From the NCBI GenBank assembly GCA_017476785.1, contig JAFUZD010000002.1, positions 1 through 37,496 of the forward strand: a DNA stretch of 37,496 bases, given 5' to 3'. The notes below the pieces were generated by a model. The model had not been told where the DNA came from. It ran no database searches and saw only the letters and a list, made by a program, of their open reading frames with translations. This document shows positions 1,462 to 31,984 of the stretch, one piece after another; position 1 is the first letter of the stretch, and the number at the start of each line of letters is the position of its first letter. The stretch is from Prevotella sp. Lineage in GTDB: Bacteria; Bacteroidota; Bacteroidia; Bacteroidales; Bacteroidaceae. Both the position numbers and the translations under genes were made by a program.

Positions 1462-2001
1462 TCACTCTGCCGAGTCGGCATCCAGCGTTGACTCGCGGAC
1501 GATTTTCAGCTCGCCCATCCGCGACAGACGGATGACAAAGGGGATGAACTCGTCGGTCTGCGGCAGGCTGATGCTGGCCGCAAACTGGAGCCAGTCGCCG
1601 TCAGTCTTCTCGAAGACCAGCCCCTCGAGCACGCCCTGACGCCGATACTCCTCGGACAGCTGGGCACTGAAATCGGATTTCTGGAACTGCCGCTTGAAGA
1701 ATACCGACCCGTCAGCACGCGACACCGTCACCGTAGCCACGTTGTCTATAAACTCCTGCCCCATCTCGTCCTGCACCTTCGGCAGTGAGTCGCACGGCTC
1801 GCGCTGCACGTAGAGATGGTAGGTGCGCCCTATCCACTGCACGTCCTGTTCCTTAGTAAACTCCTGCTGGCTGATGGGAGCCTGCGGTTGGGGCTCCTCA
1901 ATCTCCTGCGCGATGATGTCGTCTGTCTGTTTCTTTCCGCCGCAGGCTGCCAGCCATAAGGCTGCCACACCCACCAGCAGATATTTCCATTCTCGTTTCA
2001 T
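1462..2001 (-). CDS. DUF4738-type lipoprotein
   Basis: From the ATG at 2001 the product is 179 residues: MKREWKYLLVGVAALWLAAC gives a type II signal peptide with lipidated C20, followed by an acidic linker and a single domain. The domain core (QWIGRTYHLYVQREPCDSL, then DNVATVTVSRADGSVFFKR and FIPFVIRLSRMGELKIV) matches my recollection of DUF4738, a Bacteroidota family of unknown function. An in-frame ATG exists 33 bp further upstream. The start at 2001 was chosen because it places the signal peptide correctly behind a consensus promoter (2032-2062). Upstream of that promoter is an array of 21-bp-spaced palindromes. The function is unknown, and it is probably anchored to an envelope membrane. 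Confidence 0.8.
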   Translation of the reverse strand: MKREWKYLLVGVAALWLAACGGKKQTDDIIAQEIEEPQPQAPISQQEFTKEQDVQWIGRTYHLYVQREPCDSLPKVQDEMGQEFIDNVATVTVSRADGSVFFKRQFQKSDFSAQLSEEYRRQGVLEGLVFEKTDGDWLQFAASISLPQTDEFIPFVIRLSRMGELKIVRESTLDADSAE

Positions 2002-2031: not shown

Positions 2032-2062
2032 CAAAGATAGCGTTTTTCACCGAATCCGCAAA
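2032..2062 (-). promoter_or_regulatory. Bacteroidota-type promoter for the DUF4738 gene
   Basis: On the minus strand, TTTG (2062-2059), a 19-nt spacer and TATCTTTG (2039-2032) match the -33/-7 consensus TTTG-N19-21-TAnnTTTG. Transcription would start near 2025, giving a leader of about 24 nt before the ATG at 2001. Confidence 0.7.
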
Positions 2063-2074
2063 AGCCTGTCAGAG

Positions 2075-2132
2075 AATTCTCGCGAGAATTCCGGAAATTC
2101 TCGCGAGAATTTCAAAAATCTTCGCGAGAATT
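2075..2132. repeat. Array of three 16-bp palindromes with exact 21-bp spacing (locus A)
   Basis: Copies of AATTCTCGCGAGAATT lie at 2075-2090 and 2096-2111 (both exact), with a variant AATCTTCGCGAGAATT at 2117-2132. Their CGCG centres fall at 2082.5, 2103.5 and 2124.5, exactly 21 bp apart and so on one face of the helix. The array starts about 12 bp upstream of the -33 element of the DUF4738 promoter, an activator-like position. A second array with the same unit and period lies at 21193-21250. The binding factor is unknown. A dispersed repeat family is the alternative. Confidence 0.75.
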
Positions 2133-10590: not shown

Positions 10591-10601
10591 ATCTCGTTCT
10601 C

Positions 10602-10689
10602 TTTTTACTGTTTTACCTTTTTACTGTTTTACCGTTTTACCTTTTTACCTTTTTACCCTTTTACCTTTTCACCCTTTTACCTTTTCACA
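10602..10689. repeat. Octanucleotide array (TTTTTACC type), 11 copies
   Basis: Eleven consecutive 8-bp units with consensus TTTTTACC (variants GTTTTACC, CTTTTACC, TTTTCACC, TTTTTACT) fill the gap between the GH2 and GH31 genes. The stop codon of GH2 (10685-10687) lies inside the last unit. In the GGTAAAAA sense it immediately follows the GH2 stop on the transcribed strand. The same unit occurs at 31184-31287. Confidence 0.85.
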
Positions 10690-17981: not shown

Positions 17982-20900
17982 TTACTCGGCCTGTATCACA
18001 ATGGGCTGACCGCCGCCCGACTTATATTCCGAGGGCATCACGCCGTACATTTCCTTAAAATACTTGGAGAAGTAGCGGGGGTTGTTGAAGCCCACCTTAT
18101 AGGACACCTCGGCCACCGTGAGCTGGCTCTTGCGCAGCAGCTGCTCGGCGTGGCGCAGGCGAATCTGGCGGATAAACTCCGAGGGGGTGAGGTCGGTGAT
18201 GGCCGTGAGCTTCTTGTACAGATGGACGCGCGACATTCCCAGAGCCTCAGCCATCGTCTCTACGGAGATGTCGCTGTTCGACAGGTTGGTCTCCACATAT
18301 TCCGTGGCATCGTTTACCAGCTTCTGGTCGAGCGACGTAATCTCCATCTCCGTAATCTGCGGGGTTAGCTTGGCCTTAGCCGTGCCGCCACTCTCGGCCA
18401 GCTTGTTCACCTGTTCAAGCAGATGCTCCACGTTGCCGAACACCTGCTGCTCGCGCTCGTAGCGCTGCTCGTCGTTCTCTTCCTGCATCATCGTGTTCAG
18501 GCTCTCGAAGGTGTGCTGGAAGGGTTCGCGCAGCTCGTCGCTGACGGTGTCGTAGAAGTGCTGCTTCAGCTCGTCCAGTCGATGATTACTCTCCTGCTCC
18601 ATCTTCAGCCGGGCCAGTCTCATCCGCTCCTGCTGCCGGCGACGGTAGTAGCGCAGGGCCAGCAGCGCAATGCCGATGTAGACCAGCCACATCCACCACG
18701 AGCGATACCACGGGGCAGCGATGGTGATGTCCAGCTGGCTCTCTATGTCGCCGATGGTGCCGTCGTCGTTGAGCATACGGACGCAGAGCGTGTAGCTGCC
18801 CGAGGGCAGACTCATATACGTGATGTTGGGGTTCACCTCCTCGGTGCGTATCCACTGGTCGCTGAAGCCCTTCAGCTTGTAGACAAAGCGCGAGCGGTTG
18901 CTCACCTCGCCGCTGTTGGAGCCCAGCTGGATGGTGAACTGATTCTCGGCGTAGCGCAGGCGGAGCTTGCGGCAGTGGTCGAGGGCTTCGGTCAGGATGA
19001 CGCGCCCGTTGTATGTCTCGCCGGCTGAGATTTCGGTGTCGAAGAGATTCAGGCCAATGAAGATGGTCGTCTCGCCCTTGCGCCCTGAGCCCTGCCGGTT
19101 GGGGTTGATGATGTCAATACCGGTCTGGCCGCCCACGAGTATCAGCCCGTCGTGGGTGCAGAACACCGCCCGCTGGTTGTAGGTGCCGGGCTGCAAGCCG
19201 TCGCGCTGGTTGTAGCTGCGCACCAAGAACGTCCACGAGCCGTCGGCCGCGCGCTGGGGCACGATGTTAGACACGCCGTGGTCGGTAGAGGCCCAGATGG
19301 TGTGACGCTTGTCTTCGGCCACGCCCGTGATGCTCGAGCCCAGCAGGCCGCTCTTCATATCGAGCAGATAGACGCGGCCGGCAGTGCGGTCGACGATGGT
19401 CAGTCCTGAGGCCGAGCCCTGCCACACCAGCCCGCGGCTGTCCTGTATCACCTGCACGGAAGCCAGCGTGACGCCGACGTTGTCCTGATTGTCCTCAATG
19501 CTGCGGTTGACCACGCGGCGCGTCTTGGGATTGACCATTGAGTAGAAGTTGGAGTGAGCCACCAGCAGCCAGCCCTTCGACGTGAGCTGCACCGACGACA
19601 CATAGTCGCTGGACAGCTGGGAGTTCTGCGAGTTGATGGGCTCGTAGAGGCGACCCGTACGGCCGTCGATGCGCTGAACACCGCTGCCGAGCGTGCCCAC
19701 CCAGATGTCGTGGAACGAGTCTTCGGCTATGGTCCAGATGTTGTTGTTCGAGATATCCTGCGGATTGCCCGTGGCGCGGTAGTTGGTGAACTGGCCATTG
19801 CGGTAGCGGATAAGGCCACCCTCGTAGGTGCCGAACCACAGCGAGCCGTCGCTGGCGGCCAGACTGCCCACCATCACGTTCGACCCGAACCCGTAGGTCT
19901 CCTTATTGTAGAGCGTCTGCTCGCCAGTGTGGGGGTTGTAGCAGATGATGCCGCGGTCGTTGGTGCCCAGCCAGTAGTTGCCCCAGCGGTCCTCGCAGAT
20001 GGTGTTGATGTCGCCCAGCTCCACGTAGCTGAAGTCCTGCAGGTCGTCGGTATAGAGGTTCAGTCCGTTCTTGTAGGACCCTATCCAGATGCGCCCGAGC
20101 GCATCCTTATAGATGTGGCGCAGGGTATTGTCGGAGATGGTGGTCTCATCGTTCTTGTCGTTGAGGAACTGGCGCATCTCGCGGTGCTTGGCATCCACCA
20201 CGTAGAGGCCGCCGTGGTCGGTGGCAATCCACAGCCGCCCGCTGTTGTCGGTGTCCACGTCCCAGACGGATATCTGGTCGGGCACGTCGGCAATGCCCCA
20301 GTGGGCCATCACCTCGGTGATGGAGCCATACCACTTCTTCTCTTGCTTCAGATAGGCAAAGGAGTGACCGTTGGTGGTCACCCAGAGGTTACCCTTCGGG
20401 TCGCTCACCAGCTTGTAGCTCTGATTGGCCATCTGGCCGTACTGCCGCAGATAGGTGCTCTTCCACAAGATGCGGCCGCCCTCGCCGTCCATACTGACTA
20501 TCTCGCCGTTGTTCGAGATAATCATCACCTCCCTGCCCCGCTCAGCAAAGCAGGACACGCCGATGTCGGAGTTGAACTCCTGTTCGCCGTAGCCGAAGTG
20601 GAAGCAGTGCGTGTGCTTGGTGCGGGGATTGTAGAACCACATACCGGTATCGTAGGTCTTCACCCAGAAGTTCTTGTGCGAGTCAATGTAGAGAAACTCC
20701 ACGCCGCCCTTGATACCTACCTTATGGAGCCACGCTTCGGGCTGACGGTCGAACCGCTCGGTGACGGGGTCGAACACGGAGTAGTTCATACTCTGCTTAA
20801 TCCACAGCCGGCCGTCCCACGCCTCGAACACCTCGTCCACGTAGTTGTTCTTCATCGTCGTGGTATCCTTCACGTTCGAGTAGTAGGTTTTGATGCGATA

Positions 20901-21095
20901 GCCGTCGTAGCGGTTCAGTCCGTAGGGCGTGCCAATCCATACGAAGCCGCGCGAATCGCGCAGGATGCAGTTGATTTGCGAGTTGGAAAGGCCGTCGCGT
21001 GTGTCGAGCCGACGGAATTTCATATCGGGAATCGCCCCTGCCGACAGCAGTGAAGCAGTGAGGAGGCACAGGAAGACAGAGAGTAAACGTTTCAT
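17982..21095 (-). CDS. Transmembrane AraC-type regulator: hybrid two-component system lacking kinase and receiver domains
   Basis: The ATG at 21095 gives 1037 residues. In order: signal peptide (MKRLLSVFLCLLTASLLSAGA); two-bladed Reg_prop propeller repeats (WIGTPYGLNRYDG, WIATDHGGLYVVD, WLGTNDRGIICYN, WFGTYEGGLIRYR and others); a Y_Y_Y domain (VYKLKGFSDQWIRT ... LPSGSYTLCVRMLNDDG, to about 785); one transmembrane helix (about 796-814, SWWMWLVYIGIALLAL); a cytoplasmic helical hairpin (about 815-905); and an AraC helix-turn-helix domain (about 924-1030, ISVETMAEALGMSRVHLYKKL ... AEVSYKVGFNNPRYFSKYFK). The hairpin still resembles HisKA, but the H-box reads VSDELREPF with Asp (about residue 853) in place of His. 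HATPase_c and receiver domains are absent. Signal must therefore pass without phosphotransfer. It probably senses xyloglucan oligosaccharides and controls the adjacent susCD operon (inference from position). Confidence 0.9.
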   Translation of the reverse strand: MKRLLSVFLCLLTASLLSAGAIPDMKFRRLDTRDGLSNSQINCILRDSRGFVWIGTPYGLNRYDGYRIKTYYSNVKDTTTMKNNYVDEVFEAWDGRLWIKQSMNYSVFDPVTERFDRQPEAWLHKVGIKGGVEFLYIDSHKNFWVKTYDTGMWFYNPRTKHTHCFHFGYGEQEFNSDIGVSCFAERGREVMIISNNGEIVSMDGEGGRILWKSTYLRQYGQMANQSYKLVSDPKGNLWVTTNGHSFAYLKQEKKWYGSITEVMAHWGIADVPDQISVWDVDTDNSGRLWIATDHGGLYVVDAKHREMRQFLNDKNDETTISDNTLRHIYKDALGRIWIGSYKNGLNLYTDDLQDFSYVELGDINTICEDRWGNYWLGTNDRGIICYNPHTGEQTLYNKETYGFGSNVMVGSLAASDGSLWFGTYEGGLIRYRNGQFTNYRATGNPQDISNNNIWTIAEDSFHDIWVGTLGSGVQRIDGRTGRLYEPINSQNSQLSSDYVSSVQLTSKGWLLVAHSNFYSMVNPKTRRVVNRSIEDNQDNVGVTLASVQVIQDSRGLVWQGSASGLTIVDRTAGRVYLLDMKSGLLGSSITGVAEDKRHTIWASTDHGVSNIVPQRAADGSWTFLVRSYNQRDGLQPGTYNQRAVFCTHDGLILVGGQTGIDIINPNRQGSGRKGETTIFIGLNLFDTEISAGETYNGRVILTEALDHCRKLRLRYAENQFTIQLGSNSGEVSNRSRFVYKLKGFSDQWIRTEEVNPNITYMSLPSGSYTLCVRMLNDDGTIGDIESQLDITIAAPWYRSWWMWLVYIGIALLALRYYRRRQQERMRLARLKMEQESNHRLDELKQHFYDTVSDELREPFQHTFESLNTMMQEENDEQRYEREQQVFGNVEHLLEQVNKLAESGGTAKAKLTPQITEMEITSLDQKLVNDATEYVETNLSNSDISVETMAEALGMSRVHLYKKLTAITDLTPSEFIRQIRLRHAEQLLRKSQLTVAEVSYKVGFNNPRYFSKYFKEMYGVMPSEYKSGGGQPIVIQAE

Positions 21096-21127: not shown

Positions 21128-21135
21128 CAAAGATA
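21128..21135 (-). promoter_or_regulatory. -7 promoter element for the membrane regulator
   Basis: TATCTTTG on the minus strand matches TAnnTTTG. Transcription would start near 21121, 26 nt before the ATG. There is no TTTG at -33, which fits a promoter needing an activator. The palindrome array lies 58-115 bp upstream of this element. Confidence 0.6.
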
Positions 21136-21192: not shown

Positions 21193-21250
21193 AATTCTCG
21201 CGAGAATTTCCCAAATTTACGCGAGAATTCCAAAAATTCTCGCGTAAATT
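21193..21250. repeat. Array of three 16-bp palindromes with exact 21-bp spacing (locus B)
   Basis: AATTCTCGCGAGAATT is exact at 21193-21208. AATTTACGCGAGAATT (21214-21229) and AATTCTCGCGTAAATT (21235-21250) are reverse complements of each other. The CGCG centres are at 21200.5, 21221.5 and 21242.5, the same 21-bp period as locus A at 2075-2132. It sits between the terminator of the GH5 operon and the promoter of the membrane regulator. Relative to the -7 element it is displaced by 22 bp compared with locus A, about one period, so the copies lie close to the same helical face. Confidence 0.75.
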
Positions 21251-21258
21251 CACAAAGA

Positions 21259-21287
21259 AGGCTCCCGGCGCAGTGCGTCGGGAGCCT
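21259..21287 (-). terminator. Terminator of the susC-susD-binding protein-GH5 operon
   Basis: A 9-bp perfect stem AGGCTCCCG/CGGGAGCCT with an 11-nt loop lies 25 bp past the GH5 stop. On the minus strand a modest T-rich tail (TCTTTG) follows. Confidence 0.65.
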
Positions 21288-21311: not shown

Positions 21312-22781
21312 TTAGATGTTGTCGAACAGGGCGGTCACGATGTCGTCCTCGTACCACTCGAGCGTATTGCGTTTGAGCAGGCCCATCCACCACAGACCGA
21401 CGGTGTTGTAGGCTTTGAACTTCTGAGCCATATAGGTTGCATACTTCACGCGCTCTGCCATCGACTTGCCTTCGTCCAGTGCGCCAAACTCACCGTAGAA
21501 GTACGGCAGGTCGAGCTCCTGACGGAAACGCTTGTCAATCATCGTGAACATCTCGTCGATTTCGTCGGTGCACGACTTGTCGAAAGCCAGCACGTTCCAC
21601 TCGCCATTGTCGTTGCAGAAGTTGTAGGGGTCATACGAGTGGATGGAGGCCAGCAGATGGTCGGGTATCTGGTCGGACGGGGCTTGGAAGCCGTTGAGCT
21701 TAGCCTGCGTGTGGCCAGCACTGTAAGTATTGACCACCAGATTGCGGAAGGCATTGTTGCCGCCCGTGCTGCGCACCACGTCGACGAAGTCCTGCATCAA
21801 CCGATTGACGGCCGTATAGGCATCGGCATTGGCGGGATTTCCCCAGTTGCCGGTCTCGTCGATAATCTCGTTGATGCCCTCGAAGAGCAGCCGGTCGCCA
21901 TAGTCGCGGAAGCGCTCGGCAATCTGCTGCCACAGGTGCTTGAAGCGCGGGCTGATGGTCTCATACTGGCTTAGGTCGGCCACCAGCCAGTGGGCTCCGT
22001 CGCCGCGGTTGGCATCGGGCTCGCTGGCATCGTGGTGCACGTTGATGATGCAGTAGCAGCCGGCATCCAGCACGTAGTTCACCACTTCCTCCACGCGGTT
22101 CATCCACGCCTCGTCCACGTTGTCGTCGGCATCCAGATGGGGGAACCAAGTGACAGGCACGCGGATGAGGTTGAAGCCGCGCTCGGCGATGGTGTTGATA
22201 ATCTCGGGCGTGGTCCGCGGCTGTCCCCAGCAGGTCTCCCAGTCGTAGACGGTCGTCGGGTTGAACCAGCTCTGCACCGAGGGATCGGTGATGTCGTGGT
22301 TCGACTCCAGCGTGTTGCCAAGGTTGTAGCCCAGCTTCACGTTGGCAATAAACTCAGTAGCCTTCTCGAAGGTGTCGTCGGCATTGGTGCCGCTCTGATT
22401 GATGGCAATGACGCGCGACAGTCCGCCCGACTTGATGGTGACAGTGGCCGTACGGGGCACGCCGCTGTTGCGCTCCACGTCGATGCGGAGCCACGACATA
22501 CGGGTCTCGTAGGCATAGCCATAGCCTGCGCGGGCCGAAGTGGTCACCCAGTCGGCCGAGACCTCTACGTCCCAGTCGGCATTGCTGTTGATACCAATCA
22601 TCTTGCTGGCTGCCGAAGAGCCGAAGTCGAGGCTCTCGATGGCCAGCGTGTCGAGCGAGGTGACGGTCAGCCGCTGCTCGCCCGAGCCGTAGATACTGCT
22701 GTTGCTGTCGCTGCACGCGCTGACGGCCATCACAGCCAGCAACATCCATATTGCGCTGAATGAATATATAAGTCGTTTCAT
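21312..22781 (-). CDS. GH5 (subfamily 4-like) endo-xyloglucanase lipoprotein with BACON domain
   Basis: This 489-residue protein has a lipoprotein signal (MKRLIYSFSAIWMLLAVMAVSAC, C23) followed by SDSNSS, a likely surface-export signal. A BACON domain (about 38-132; SNADWDVEVSADWV ... GVPRTATVTIKSGG) precedes a GH5 barrel (about 140-480). GYNLGNTLES, RVPVTWFPH and INVHHD are typical of GH5_4. Acid/base E305 is in FEGINEIID and nucleophile E431 is in YFYGEFGALDE. The BACON-GH5_4 architecture is that of the B. ovatus xyloglucan-specific endo-glucanase BoGH5A, so it should cut the xyloglucan backbone at the cell surface. It is the last gene of the susCD operon, 27 bp after the binding-protein gene. 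Confidence 0.93.
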   Translation of the reverse strand: MKRLIYSFSAIWMLLAVMAVSACSDSNSSIYGSGEQRLTVTSLDTLAIESLDFGSSAASKMIGINSNADWDVEVSADWVTTSARAGYGYAYETRMSWLRIDVERNSGVPRTATVTIKSGGLSRVIAINQSGTNADDTFEKATEFIANVKLGYNLGNTLESNHDITDPSVQSWFNPTTVYDWETCWGQPRTTPEIINTIAERGFNLIRVPVTWFPHLDADDNVDEAWMNRVEEVVNYVLDAGCYCIINVHHDASEPDANRGDGAHWLVADLSQYETISPRFKHLWQQIAERFRDYGDRLLFEGINEIIDETGNWGNPANADAYTAVNRLMQDFVDVVRSTGGNNAFRNLVVNTYSAGHTQAKLNGFQAPSDQIPDHLLASIHSYDPYNFCNDNGEWNVLAFDKSCTDEIDEMFTMIDKRFRQELDLPYFYGEFGALDEGKSMAERVKYATYMAQKFKAYNTVGLWWMGLLKRNTLEWYEDDIVTALFDNI

Positions 22782-31005: not shown

Positions 31006-31090
31006 ATGCCCTAACGCCAGCAGCCCCTATTCTTGGCCTGTCTGCCCGGCGCGCACGCCCCTTTCCGAGGCTACCGGAGGCGGCATCGGG

Positions 31091-31178
31091 CTTGTTTGCG
31101 CCACAGAAACAGTCTGTTTTTGTCATAGAAACAGCTTGTTTGTGCCACAGAAACAACTTGTTTATATGGCAGAAACAA
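31091..31178. repeat. Four tandem 22-bp repeats with internal dyad symmetry
   Basis: Units at 31091-31112, 31114-31134, 31135-31156 and 31157-31178 share the pattern CTTGTTTGTGCCACAGAAACA plus G or A. Each is itself an imperfect inverted repeat (C[TT]GTTT ... AAACA[G]). No protein is encoded. The GGTAAAAA array begins 6 bp further on. The rest of 31006-31090 holds nothing I can identify. Confidence 0.7.
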
Positions 31179-31183
31179 ACAAA

Positions 31184-31287
31184 GGTAAAAAGGTAAAAAG
31201 GTAAAAAGGTAAAAAGGTAAAAAGGTAAAAAGTTAAAAAGGTAAAAAGGTAAAAAGGTAAAAAGGTAAAAAGGTAAAAAGGTAAAAA
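31184..31287. repeat. GGTAAAAA octamer array, 13 copies
   Basis: Thirteen perfect 8-bp steps of GGTAAAAA run without interruption. Only the seventh differs (GTTAAAAA). A 25-bp spacer separates it from three inverted copies at 31313-31337, so the whole could fold into a long stem. The unit is the same as in the array near 10602-10689. Confidence 0.9.
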
Positions 31288-31312
31288 GAGACCCATTCCT
31301 TCCAAGAGTCCC

Positions 31313-31339: not shown

Positions 31340-31984
31340 TTAAATATAGTATTCCGCCGAGTCGACCAGCCCGGCACGCAGGGCGTACTTGGTCGCCTCG
31401 TGCACATTGTTGACGCCCAGCTTGCGGAAGATGTTCTTGCGGTGGGTATTGACGGTGTGGAAACTGGAGAAGCGCCGGTCGGCAATCTCCTTCGTGGTCA
31501 TTCCGAGTGCAATGTCCTTCAGAATCTCGGTCTCGGTGCGCGTCAGTCGCACCTCCTCATCGATGACCGGTGCCTGAGGAGCCAGCAGTAGCTCCGTCAT
31601 TCGCTGGCAGATGAACCGCTGGTGGCGGCTGGCAAAGTGGATGCACTCGCGGATTTCCTGCAACGAGGAGTCCTTCAGCAGGATGCTGAAATGGGGGCTG
31701 ATGGCAATGACGCGGCGCACGAAGTCGCAGGAGAGGTCGAAACTGAAGAGCACCCAGCTGACCAGCGGGAAGCGCTCGTGCAGGATTTGCAGCTCGTCGG
31801 CGTCGTTGATGTCGAACAGGGTGTAGTCCAGCACCACGATGGCATCGGGCTGCTGCTTGAGCAGTTCTATCAGCTCCGTCTTGTCCTCGGCCTGCCGCTG
31901 CCGCACGTCGCTGCCTAACGCAGCGCAGACATACATCATCCCCGCTCGCGTAATATCTTGGTTGTCGGCTAATGCTATAAACAT
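31340..31984 (-). CDS. Orphan LuxR/NarL-type response regulator
   Basis: This 214-residue protein has an N-terminal receiver-like domain (about 1-120) with the phospho-acceptor candidate D53 in VVLDYTLFD and K104 in ILLKDSS. The acidic pair after beta-1 is reduced to ADNQD. A C-terminal GerE helix-turn-helix follows (about 146-205, LTRTETEILKDIALGMTTKEIADRRFSSFHTVNTHRKNIFRKLG). It should bind DNA as a dimer. No histidine kinase is adjacent; the nearest is the orphan kinase at 5747-6526. It lies 75 bp after the CDP-alcohol phosphatidyltransferase gene and has no obvious promoter of its own, so it may be co-transcribed with the lipid genes. Its target genes are unknown. Confidence 0.88.
   Translation of the reverse strand: MFIALADNQDITRAGMMYVCAALGSDVRQRQAEDKTELIELLKQQPDAIVVLDYTLFDINDADELQILHERFPLVSWVLFSFDLSCDFVRRVIAISPHFSILLKDSSLQEIRECIHFASRHQRFICQRMTELLLAPQAPVIDEEVRLTRTETEILKDIALGMTTKEIADRRFSSFHTVNTHRKNIFRKLGVNNVHEATKYALRAGLVDSAEYYI

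Follow-up and report, generated by a model that had tools for sequence, protein, structure and literature searches.

Phased palindrome triplets in a Prevotella genome as possible docking arrays for one oligomeric DNA-binding protein

Two unrelated genes, encoding a DUF4738 protein and a putative polysaccharide regulator, are each preceded by the same palindrome repeated three times at exactly 21 bp, which raises the question of what reads such a triplet and how widely it is used. Both loci, A and B, lie in the window, a stretch of 37,496 nucleotides from a Prevotella metagenome-assembled genome (MAG). Their features are as follows.

1462..2001, minus strand: gene downstream of locus A, DUF4738 protein
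2032..2039, minus strand: -7 box TATCTTTG of that gene, its distance to the array edge 35 bp (35 mod 11 = 2)
2075..2132, no strand: locus A, three units at 2075, 2096 and 2117, of the same build as locus B
17982..21095, minus strand: gene downstream of locus B, a regulator with Reg_prop propeller, Y_Y_Y and AraC-type HTH (start ATG at 21095, chosen from sequence reading)
21128..21135, minus strand: -7 box TATCTTTG of that gene, its distance to the array edge 57 bp (57 mod 11 = 2)
21193..21208, no strand: locus B unit 1, AATTCTCGCGAGAATT, a perfect palindrome, nearest to the regulator promoter
21214..21229, no strand: locus B unit 2, AATTTACGCGAGAATT, with one variant half-site (AATTTACG)
21235..21250, no strand: locus B unit 3, AATTCTCGCGTAAATT, with the variant in the other half
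21260..21286, no strand: GC-rich inverted repeat, terminator-like by sequence reading, between the locus B array and the 3' end of the upstream gene
21312..22781, minus strand: gene upstream of locus B, GH5 cellulase with a BACON domain

The description of locus B in the earlier note is borne out by direct reading and by a scan of the window: the three units stand at exact 21-bp spacing, and units 2 and 3 are exact reverse complements, the mirror-image variants that had been claimed. Six units with at most three mismatches occur in the window, three per locus, as compared with 0.13 on average, and never more than 1, over 100 shuffles. The proposed 22-bp offset between the loci is also correct, and A and B share one helical phase relative to the -7 box. 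A second match to the box motif at locus B overlaps the array itself and is probably due to chance. The open heptapeptide frame that was flagged as a trap for gene finders is accounted for by a period of 21 bp, or seven codons, and is not evidence of a gene.

These two loci are one case of a much larger set. The genome of the window (G000; 2.72 Mb, 139 contigs, 89% complete) yielded 98 matches to a pattern for adjacent pairs of units and none to the reversed control pattern. Scanning of the DNA around every listed locus (685,700 bases, about 8 kb per side where the contig allowed) led to 54 arrays that were read individually, so that the further loci on which the earlier note had made its proposal depend do exist. 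Fifty-one of them have three units, each with at most three mismatches, and the other three have two, one of these ending at a contig end; the array of L045 carries a degenerate fourth unit beyond its three. All 105 unit-to-unit spacings are 21 bp. Isolated units with fewer than two mismatches were absent from the scanned DNA, which contains 14 with two or three mismatches. Looser searches gave 58 three-unit windows (at most two mismatches) and 119 pairs (at most three), with no reversed-control match in either; set against the 105 pairs in the loci read, these counts indicate that a few weaker arrays may be missing from the 54. Degenerate or divergent arrays, for example of AATTTACGCGTGAATT type, are seen at L057:8036-8093, L029:8039-8096, L026:4976-5012 and L043:8065-8101, and could be ancestral or decaying copies.

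Alignment of the copies defines the unit as R-AATTCTCGCGAGAATT-Y; all 51 triplets have the outer R and Y, and 49-50 of them the inner ones. With the strongly degenerate triplets L029, L033 and L057 set aside here and in the half-site, target-site-duplication (TSD), polarity and linker analyses, mean pairwise identity among the remaining 48 arrays is 94% for units, 58% for linkers and 30% for flanks, and information content falls off beyond the array edges; the boxes are thus kept while the linkers drift. The half-site rules that the earlier note had hoped to obtain from aligned copies could be derived: 57 of 63 variant half-sites fit AATYYWCG and the other six begin with G, the commonest being AATTTTCG (27) and AATTTACG (22). 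Variants favour the inner half-sites (51/63), and their number per triplet is strikingly constrained. None, one, two and three variants are carried by 1, 33, 12 and 2 arrays, respectively, against binomial expectations of 10.9, 18.3, 12.8 and 4.8, and the variance of 0.34 (1.0 expected) was never matched or undercut in 5,000 simulations. Not one of 144 units has both halves variant (6.9 expected, P=0.0016), a pattern that speaks for half-site recognition rather than base-pairing structures. A polarity set by the variant half-site was considered and dropped, its orientation towards the promoter not being clear. Linker pairs that agree at no fewer than eight of 10 bases outnumber those in shuffles (185 versus 126, 0/500), suggesting that some arrays may be copies, yet the excess is gone at nine or more (P=0.12) and at ten (P=0.21), and mean similarity equals that of the shuffles. 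These figures come from a null with arrays oriented, adopted in place of an earlier one that flipped orientation at random and was unsuitable.

The relation to promoters extends well beyond loci A and B. Boxes were called by TAnnTTTG, which we take to be the Bacteroidetes -7 box, and were found in 43 of 57 flanks in which a gene faces the array; the array is upstream of the box in 42 of the 43, at 3-268 bp. The 34 array-to-box distances below 150 bp follow an 11.0-bp period with a mean resultant R of 0.70, a value reached by none of 5,000 jittered sets with scanned periods and none of 400,000 at the fixed period. The 42 distances stem from 31 arrays, and the signal survives when one is taken per array (n=27, R=0.70, P=1e-5), also with degenerate arrays left out (n=24, R=0.68, P=1e-5). 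It is strongest below 60 bp (R=0.84, n=17), persists at 60-115 bp (R=0.65, n=14) and is absent at 115-200 bp (R=0.14, n=9 distances). Control octamers near the arrays number 4 (reversed), 3 (wrong strand) and 4 (complement) versus 36 boxes. Neither start-codon distances (P=0.31) nor the word T.ATT (P=0.32) is periodic; the bare word TTTG, which is part of the boxes, is weakly periodic (R=0.29, P=0.009). Convergent arrays have a box within 300 bp in one case of seven. The sole box that precedes its array is at L049:2747-2804, where 50 bp separate the array from the called start of a gene for an HU-HIG DNA-binding protein; the array thus probably lies in the 5' leader of this gene, which makes the gene a possible candidate for autoregulation.

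Gene neighbourhoods, as drawn by a simple purpose-made gene caller, place all 54 arrays outside called genes, two of them running 1 and 13 bp into a called 3' end. Seventeen lie in divergent, 26 in co-directional and 7 in convergent gaps, and four have no neighbour on one side; the 197 background gaps of at least 100 bp comprise 50, 121 and 26, so that the convergent share (7/50) is about that of the background (26/197). Of the co-directional arrays, 24 of 26 lie closer to the stop codon upstream than to the start codon that follows, and for four of these the next called gene is over 1 kb away. Scanning of the 57 genes that have their 5' end towards an array and within 700 bp of it gave 103 Pfam families, each with at most two members, and a coherent pathway regulon is therefore not supported. 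The arrays are also over-dispersed along the chromosome. Forty-nine good arrays on 33 contigs give 16 intervals, of which the smallest is 10,256 bp; none is below 10 kb, as compared with 6.9 expected under uniform placement, and zero was never obtained in 20,000 simulations. Five degenerate arrays of the 54 were left out of this test, and restoring the two on shared contigs keeps the minimum at 10.26 kb; weaker arrays beyond the scanned DNA could fall within intervals, and none was found inside the scanned stretches.

Comparison with other genomes, one per species, indicates that the palindrome itself is narrowly distributed. Exact pairs in the named genome collection occur in only one other species, the uncultured Prevotella MAG G438, whose array coordinates match those in the congeneric genome G185 and whose arrays carry AATTTTCGCGAAAATT (14 pairs with at most three mismatches); in all 99 further genomes of the genus that were sampled, no zero-mismatch pair was present. 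Loose triplets were found in 4 of 398 genomes, namely G000 and, with altered or asymmetric units, G051, G185 and G336. The region 600 bp upstream of proS, the sole orthologous place tried, holds no 21-22-bp array in the best 29 of 395 relatives with a match (ProS 91-93% identical in the 29, gene order differing in some). Promoter phasing recurs in G438: 12 -7 boxes at 7 of 9 distinct arrays, counted without requiring a facing gene, give R=0.65 at the preset 11-bp period (P=0.004), rising to 0.78 (P=0.0016) for the nine distances below 115 bp. The phase in G438 is 0.6-0.9 bp versus 2.2 bp in G000, and a period of 10.75 bp fits G438 better than 11.

The geometry appears to travel further than the sequence. 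A qualitative tandem-repeat scan of 48-100 kb from each of 14 relatives, some rows of which are coding repeats, showed arrays of about 21-23 bp and other sequence in most; the stretches sampled from G004 and G078 had none. In G128 (L078:1501-1558), which belongs to another family of the same order, a triplet of ATTCACCGCGGTGAAT-type units at 21-bp spacing was observed, so the geometry is not confined to this genus. Two closed genomes carry unrelated families in quantity. In G391 (2.73 Mb), AAAGNNNNNCTTT repeated at 22 bp makes up 96 four-unit windows at 95 loci, one of which has five units; within 100 kb that were read, all 24 single units belong to six arrays. Its smallest interval is 7,283 bp, with none below 7 kb versus 20.4 expected (0/20,000), and the coefficient of variation of the intervals is 0.78 versus 0.98 (P=0.007). 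None of 50 arrays read lies within a gene; the 42 with both neighbours known comprise 25 co-directional, 12 convergent and 5 divergent cases, beside 105, 30 and 32 among 167 background gaps. The arrays are embedded in a conserved element of about 215 bp (consensus made with four atypical arrays of the 50 left out) and show no clear phasing to promoters (n=28, P=0.065). Flanking boxes of TGTATATTTATGCA type are conserved at L203, L212 and other four-unit arrays, those on the right side partly keeping the 22-bp register. G016 (3.17 Mb) has 92 pairs of another 22-bp family at 72 loci, with one interval below 5 kb versus 7.6 expected (P=0.002) and otherwise random-like spacing (CV 1.04); it offers too few boxes to serve as a phasing replicate. 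The families of G391 and G016 may represent something else, akin to MITEs and alike in geometry only.

Other phased repeats are present in the window. Four 22-bp units (TGTTT...AGAAACA) at 31090-31178 form a second array upstream of a LuxR-type (GerE) regulator at 31340-31984, and one more copy of the unit was seen at L026:6007 among the G000 stretches scanned. This array adjoins one of two head-to-tail octamer arrays (AAAGGTAA / TTTTTACC), at 31181-31288 and 10601-10685; shorter copies of the latter type occur in G000 at L043:6563 and L065:13226.

Several explanations compete for these observations. Phage or plasmid origin was rejected, as the 74-bp array has no match in phages or plasmids and viral contigs contain no exact pair. 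RNA hairpins or DNA cruciforms, acting as terminators or 3' UTR elements, would suit perfect palindromes that often lie close to stop codons; the lack of units changed in both halves, and hence of compensatory changes, disfavours them, as do the two linkers, which do not covary as complements (111/255 matches versus 121 in shuffles), and the absence of any Rfam match in the window, making this reading very improbable. The shared regulon proposed in the earlier note fares better in part. Half-site rules, many further loci and the helical relation to the -7 element all stand, and the placement of arrays upstream of phased boxes in 42 of 43 flanks is what conventional operators of one transcription factor would show. 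A coherent gene set that includes the DUF4738 lipoprotein and the polysaccharide regulator is unlikely, however, in view of the scatter of Pfam families among the facing genes, convergent arrays at background frequency, co-directional arrays mostly nearer the upstream stop, and over-dispersion. Purely architectural sites, whether for topological domains, gyrase or a function like nucleoid occlusion, would account for exclusion distances in two species with unrelated arrays, for the avoidance of genes and for the position of 24 of 26 co-directional arrays near the upstream stop. They would reduce promoter phasing to a side effect of packaging, which leaves its strength in both G000 and G438 unexplained, and the otherwise random-like spacing in G016 fits poorly, so that we consider this account improbable.

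Mobile elements of BrickBuilt or MITE type are a more serious rival, though still a doubtful one. Here the array would be bound by a mobilising enzyme and spread through intergenic DNA with target immunity over more than 7-10 kb and with no host function. Such a history is consistent with intergenic placement and exclusion distances in both G000 and G391, with the absence of zero-mismatch pairs from 99 of 99 sampled congeners, with the conserved element of about 215 bp in G391 and with the modest excess of similar linkers. A precedent is BrickBuilt, an intergenic minisatellite MITE of Porphyromonas gingivalis known from 19 loci (PMC4596501); its 23-nt repeat lacks spacers and is present in 1 to 22.8 copies, and the element has leader and tail ends. 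Like it, the G000 arrays are intergenic, species-limited, dispersed and repeated at about two helical turns. They differ in having three units at 51 of 54 loci, where BrickBuilt has 1 to 22.8 repeats, and in having no conserved ends. Terminal inverted repeats with a target-site duplication, and variable head-to-tail repeat number, the marks of a MITE, were not found in G000: the arrays share no flank, and TSD-like matches at k=3 to 5 are within the range of 300 shuffles, with none at k=6 to 8. Transposition of a whole element in G000 was rejected on these grounds. Units far more conserved than linkers, and helical phasing to promoters, would likewise not be predicted by mobility.

The REP/BIME elements of enterobacteria resemble the arrays in being extragenic palindromic units that are species-specific and near 3' ends; their units are longer and not fixed at three, and we know of no promoter phasing for them. 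The sites of SlmA and Noc are palindromic too and, to our knowledge, are not phased triplets tied to promoters. Specific binding sites for these proteins are described as scattered around the chromosome (PMC4331003, PMC4117426), as are the arrays. Among the titles and abstracts returned by searches of open-licence literature on Prevotella repeats and on nucleoid-occlusion sites in Bacteroidetes, none describes arrays of this kind, BrickBuilt being the nearest; repeats of Porphyromonas are also treated in a further paper (PMC5771137).

The kept boxes, strict 21-bp geometry, fixed number and promoter register instead favour three cooperating dimers on one face of the helix. We infer from them the binding of a protein, its oligomeric state and its effect on transcription, and put at about even the chance that the arrays are species-specific docking sites for one oligomeric DNA-binding protein acting on one helix face. 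Three dimers would sit side by side, their dyads two turns apart, and about 60 bp of DNA would probably be bent or wrapped in the bound complex. At promoters no more than roughly 115 bp away, this complex would keep a constant helical orientation towards RNA polymerase and, in the manner of activators bound upstream, probably modulate initiation. A chromosome-wide set over unrelated operons suggests a binder closer in kind to global or architectural factors than to the regulator of one pathway. An exclusion distance of more than 10 kb is not expected of a regulator and counts against the docking reading; neither it nor the convergent arrays are explained by promoter action alone, so that an architectural role or an insertion-immune element may also be in play.

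Proteins of the kind envisaged are known, and two provide geometric parallels. The ArgR hexamer of Escherichia coli binds two 18-bp semi-palindromic ARG boxes that are 3 bp apart, 21 bp centre to centre and on one face (PMC6640053). The G000 box RAATTCTCGCGAGAATTY, at 18 bp with a 3-bp gap and 21-bp spacing, has this same arrangement, a likeness of geometry alone; the boxes number three rather than two, have another sequence and recur at 50-odd unrelated loci. Dimers of the Lrp/AsnC type recognise sites of 13-17 bp that are separated by two or three turns of the helix, and in Ss-LrpB three dimers together wrap about 100 bp of DNA (PMC2995911). The 16-bp units at 21 bp in G000 and the 15-bp units at 22 bp in G391 fall within this site spacing, again by geometry alone, and the four units of G391 would suit an octamer. 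The Lrp/AsnC operators described there sit in control regions of target genes, a difference from the arrays here. ArgR and Lrp show that such machines exist and do not identify the binder in Prevotella.

More tentatively, the arrays may belong to a system found across Prevotella, in which each species has its own palindrome in the same two-turn geometry. The number of boxes would be fixed (three in G000, four in G391), as though each station were occupied by a single oligomer of three or four dimers, and stations would stand at least 7-10 kb apart in two genomes, with specificity rapidly re-set between species and promoter register in at least two of them. Should the arrays indeed be read by a protein, a major gut genus would have a chromosome-wide factor whose roughly 55 sites are predictable from sequence and whose phasing is on record at about 40 promoters. 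The 11.0-bp period is an evolutionary measurement that makes face-of-the-helix action testable, and the unrelated parallel arrays pose the question of why two-turn spacing, fixed copy number and exclusion distance recur in this genus when the sequence does not.
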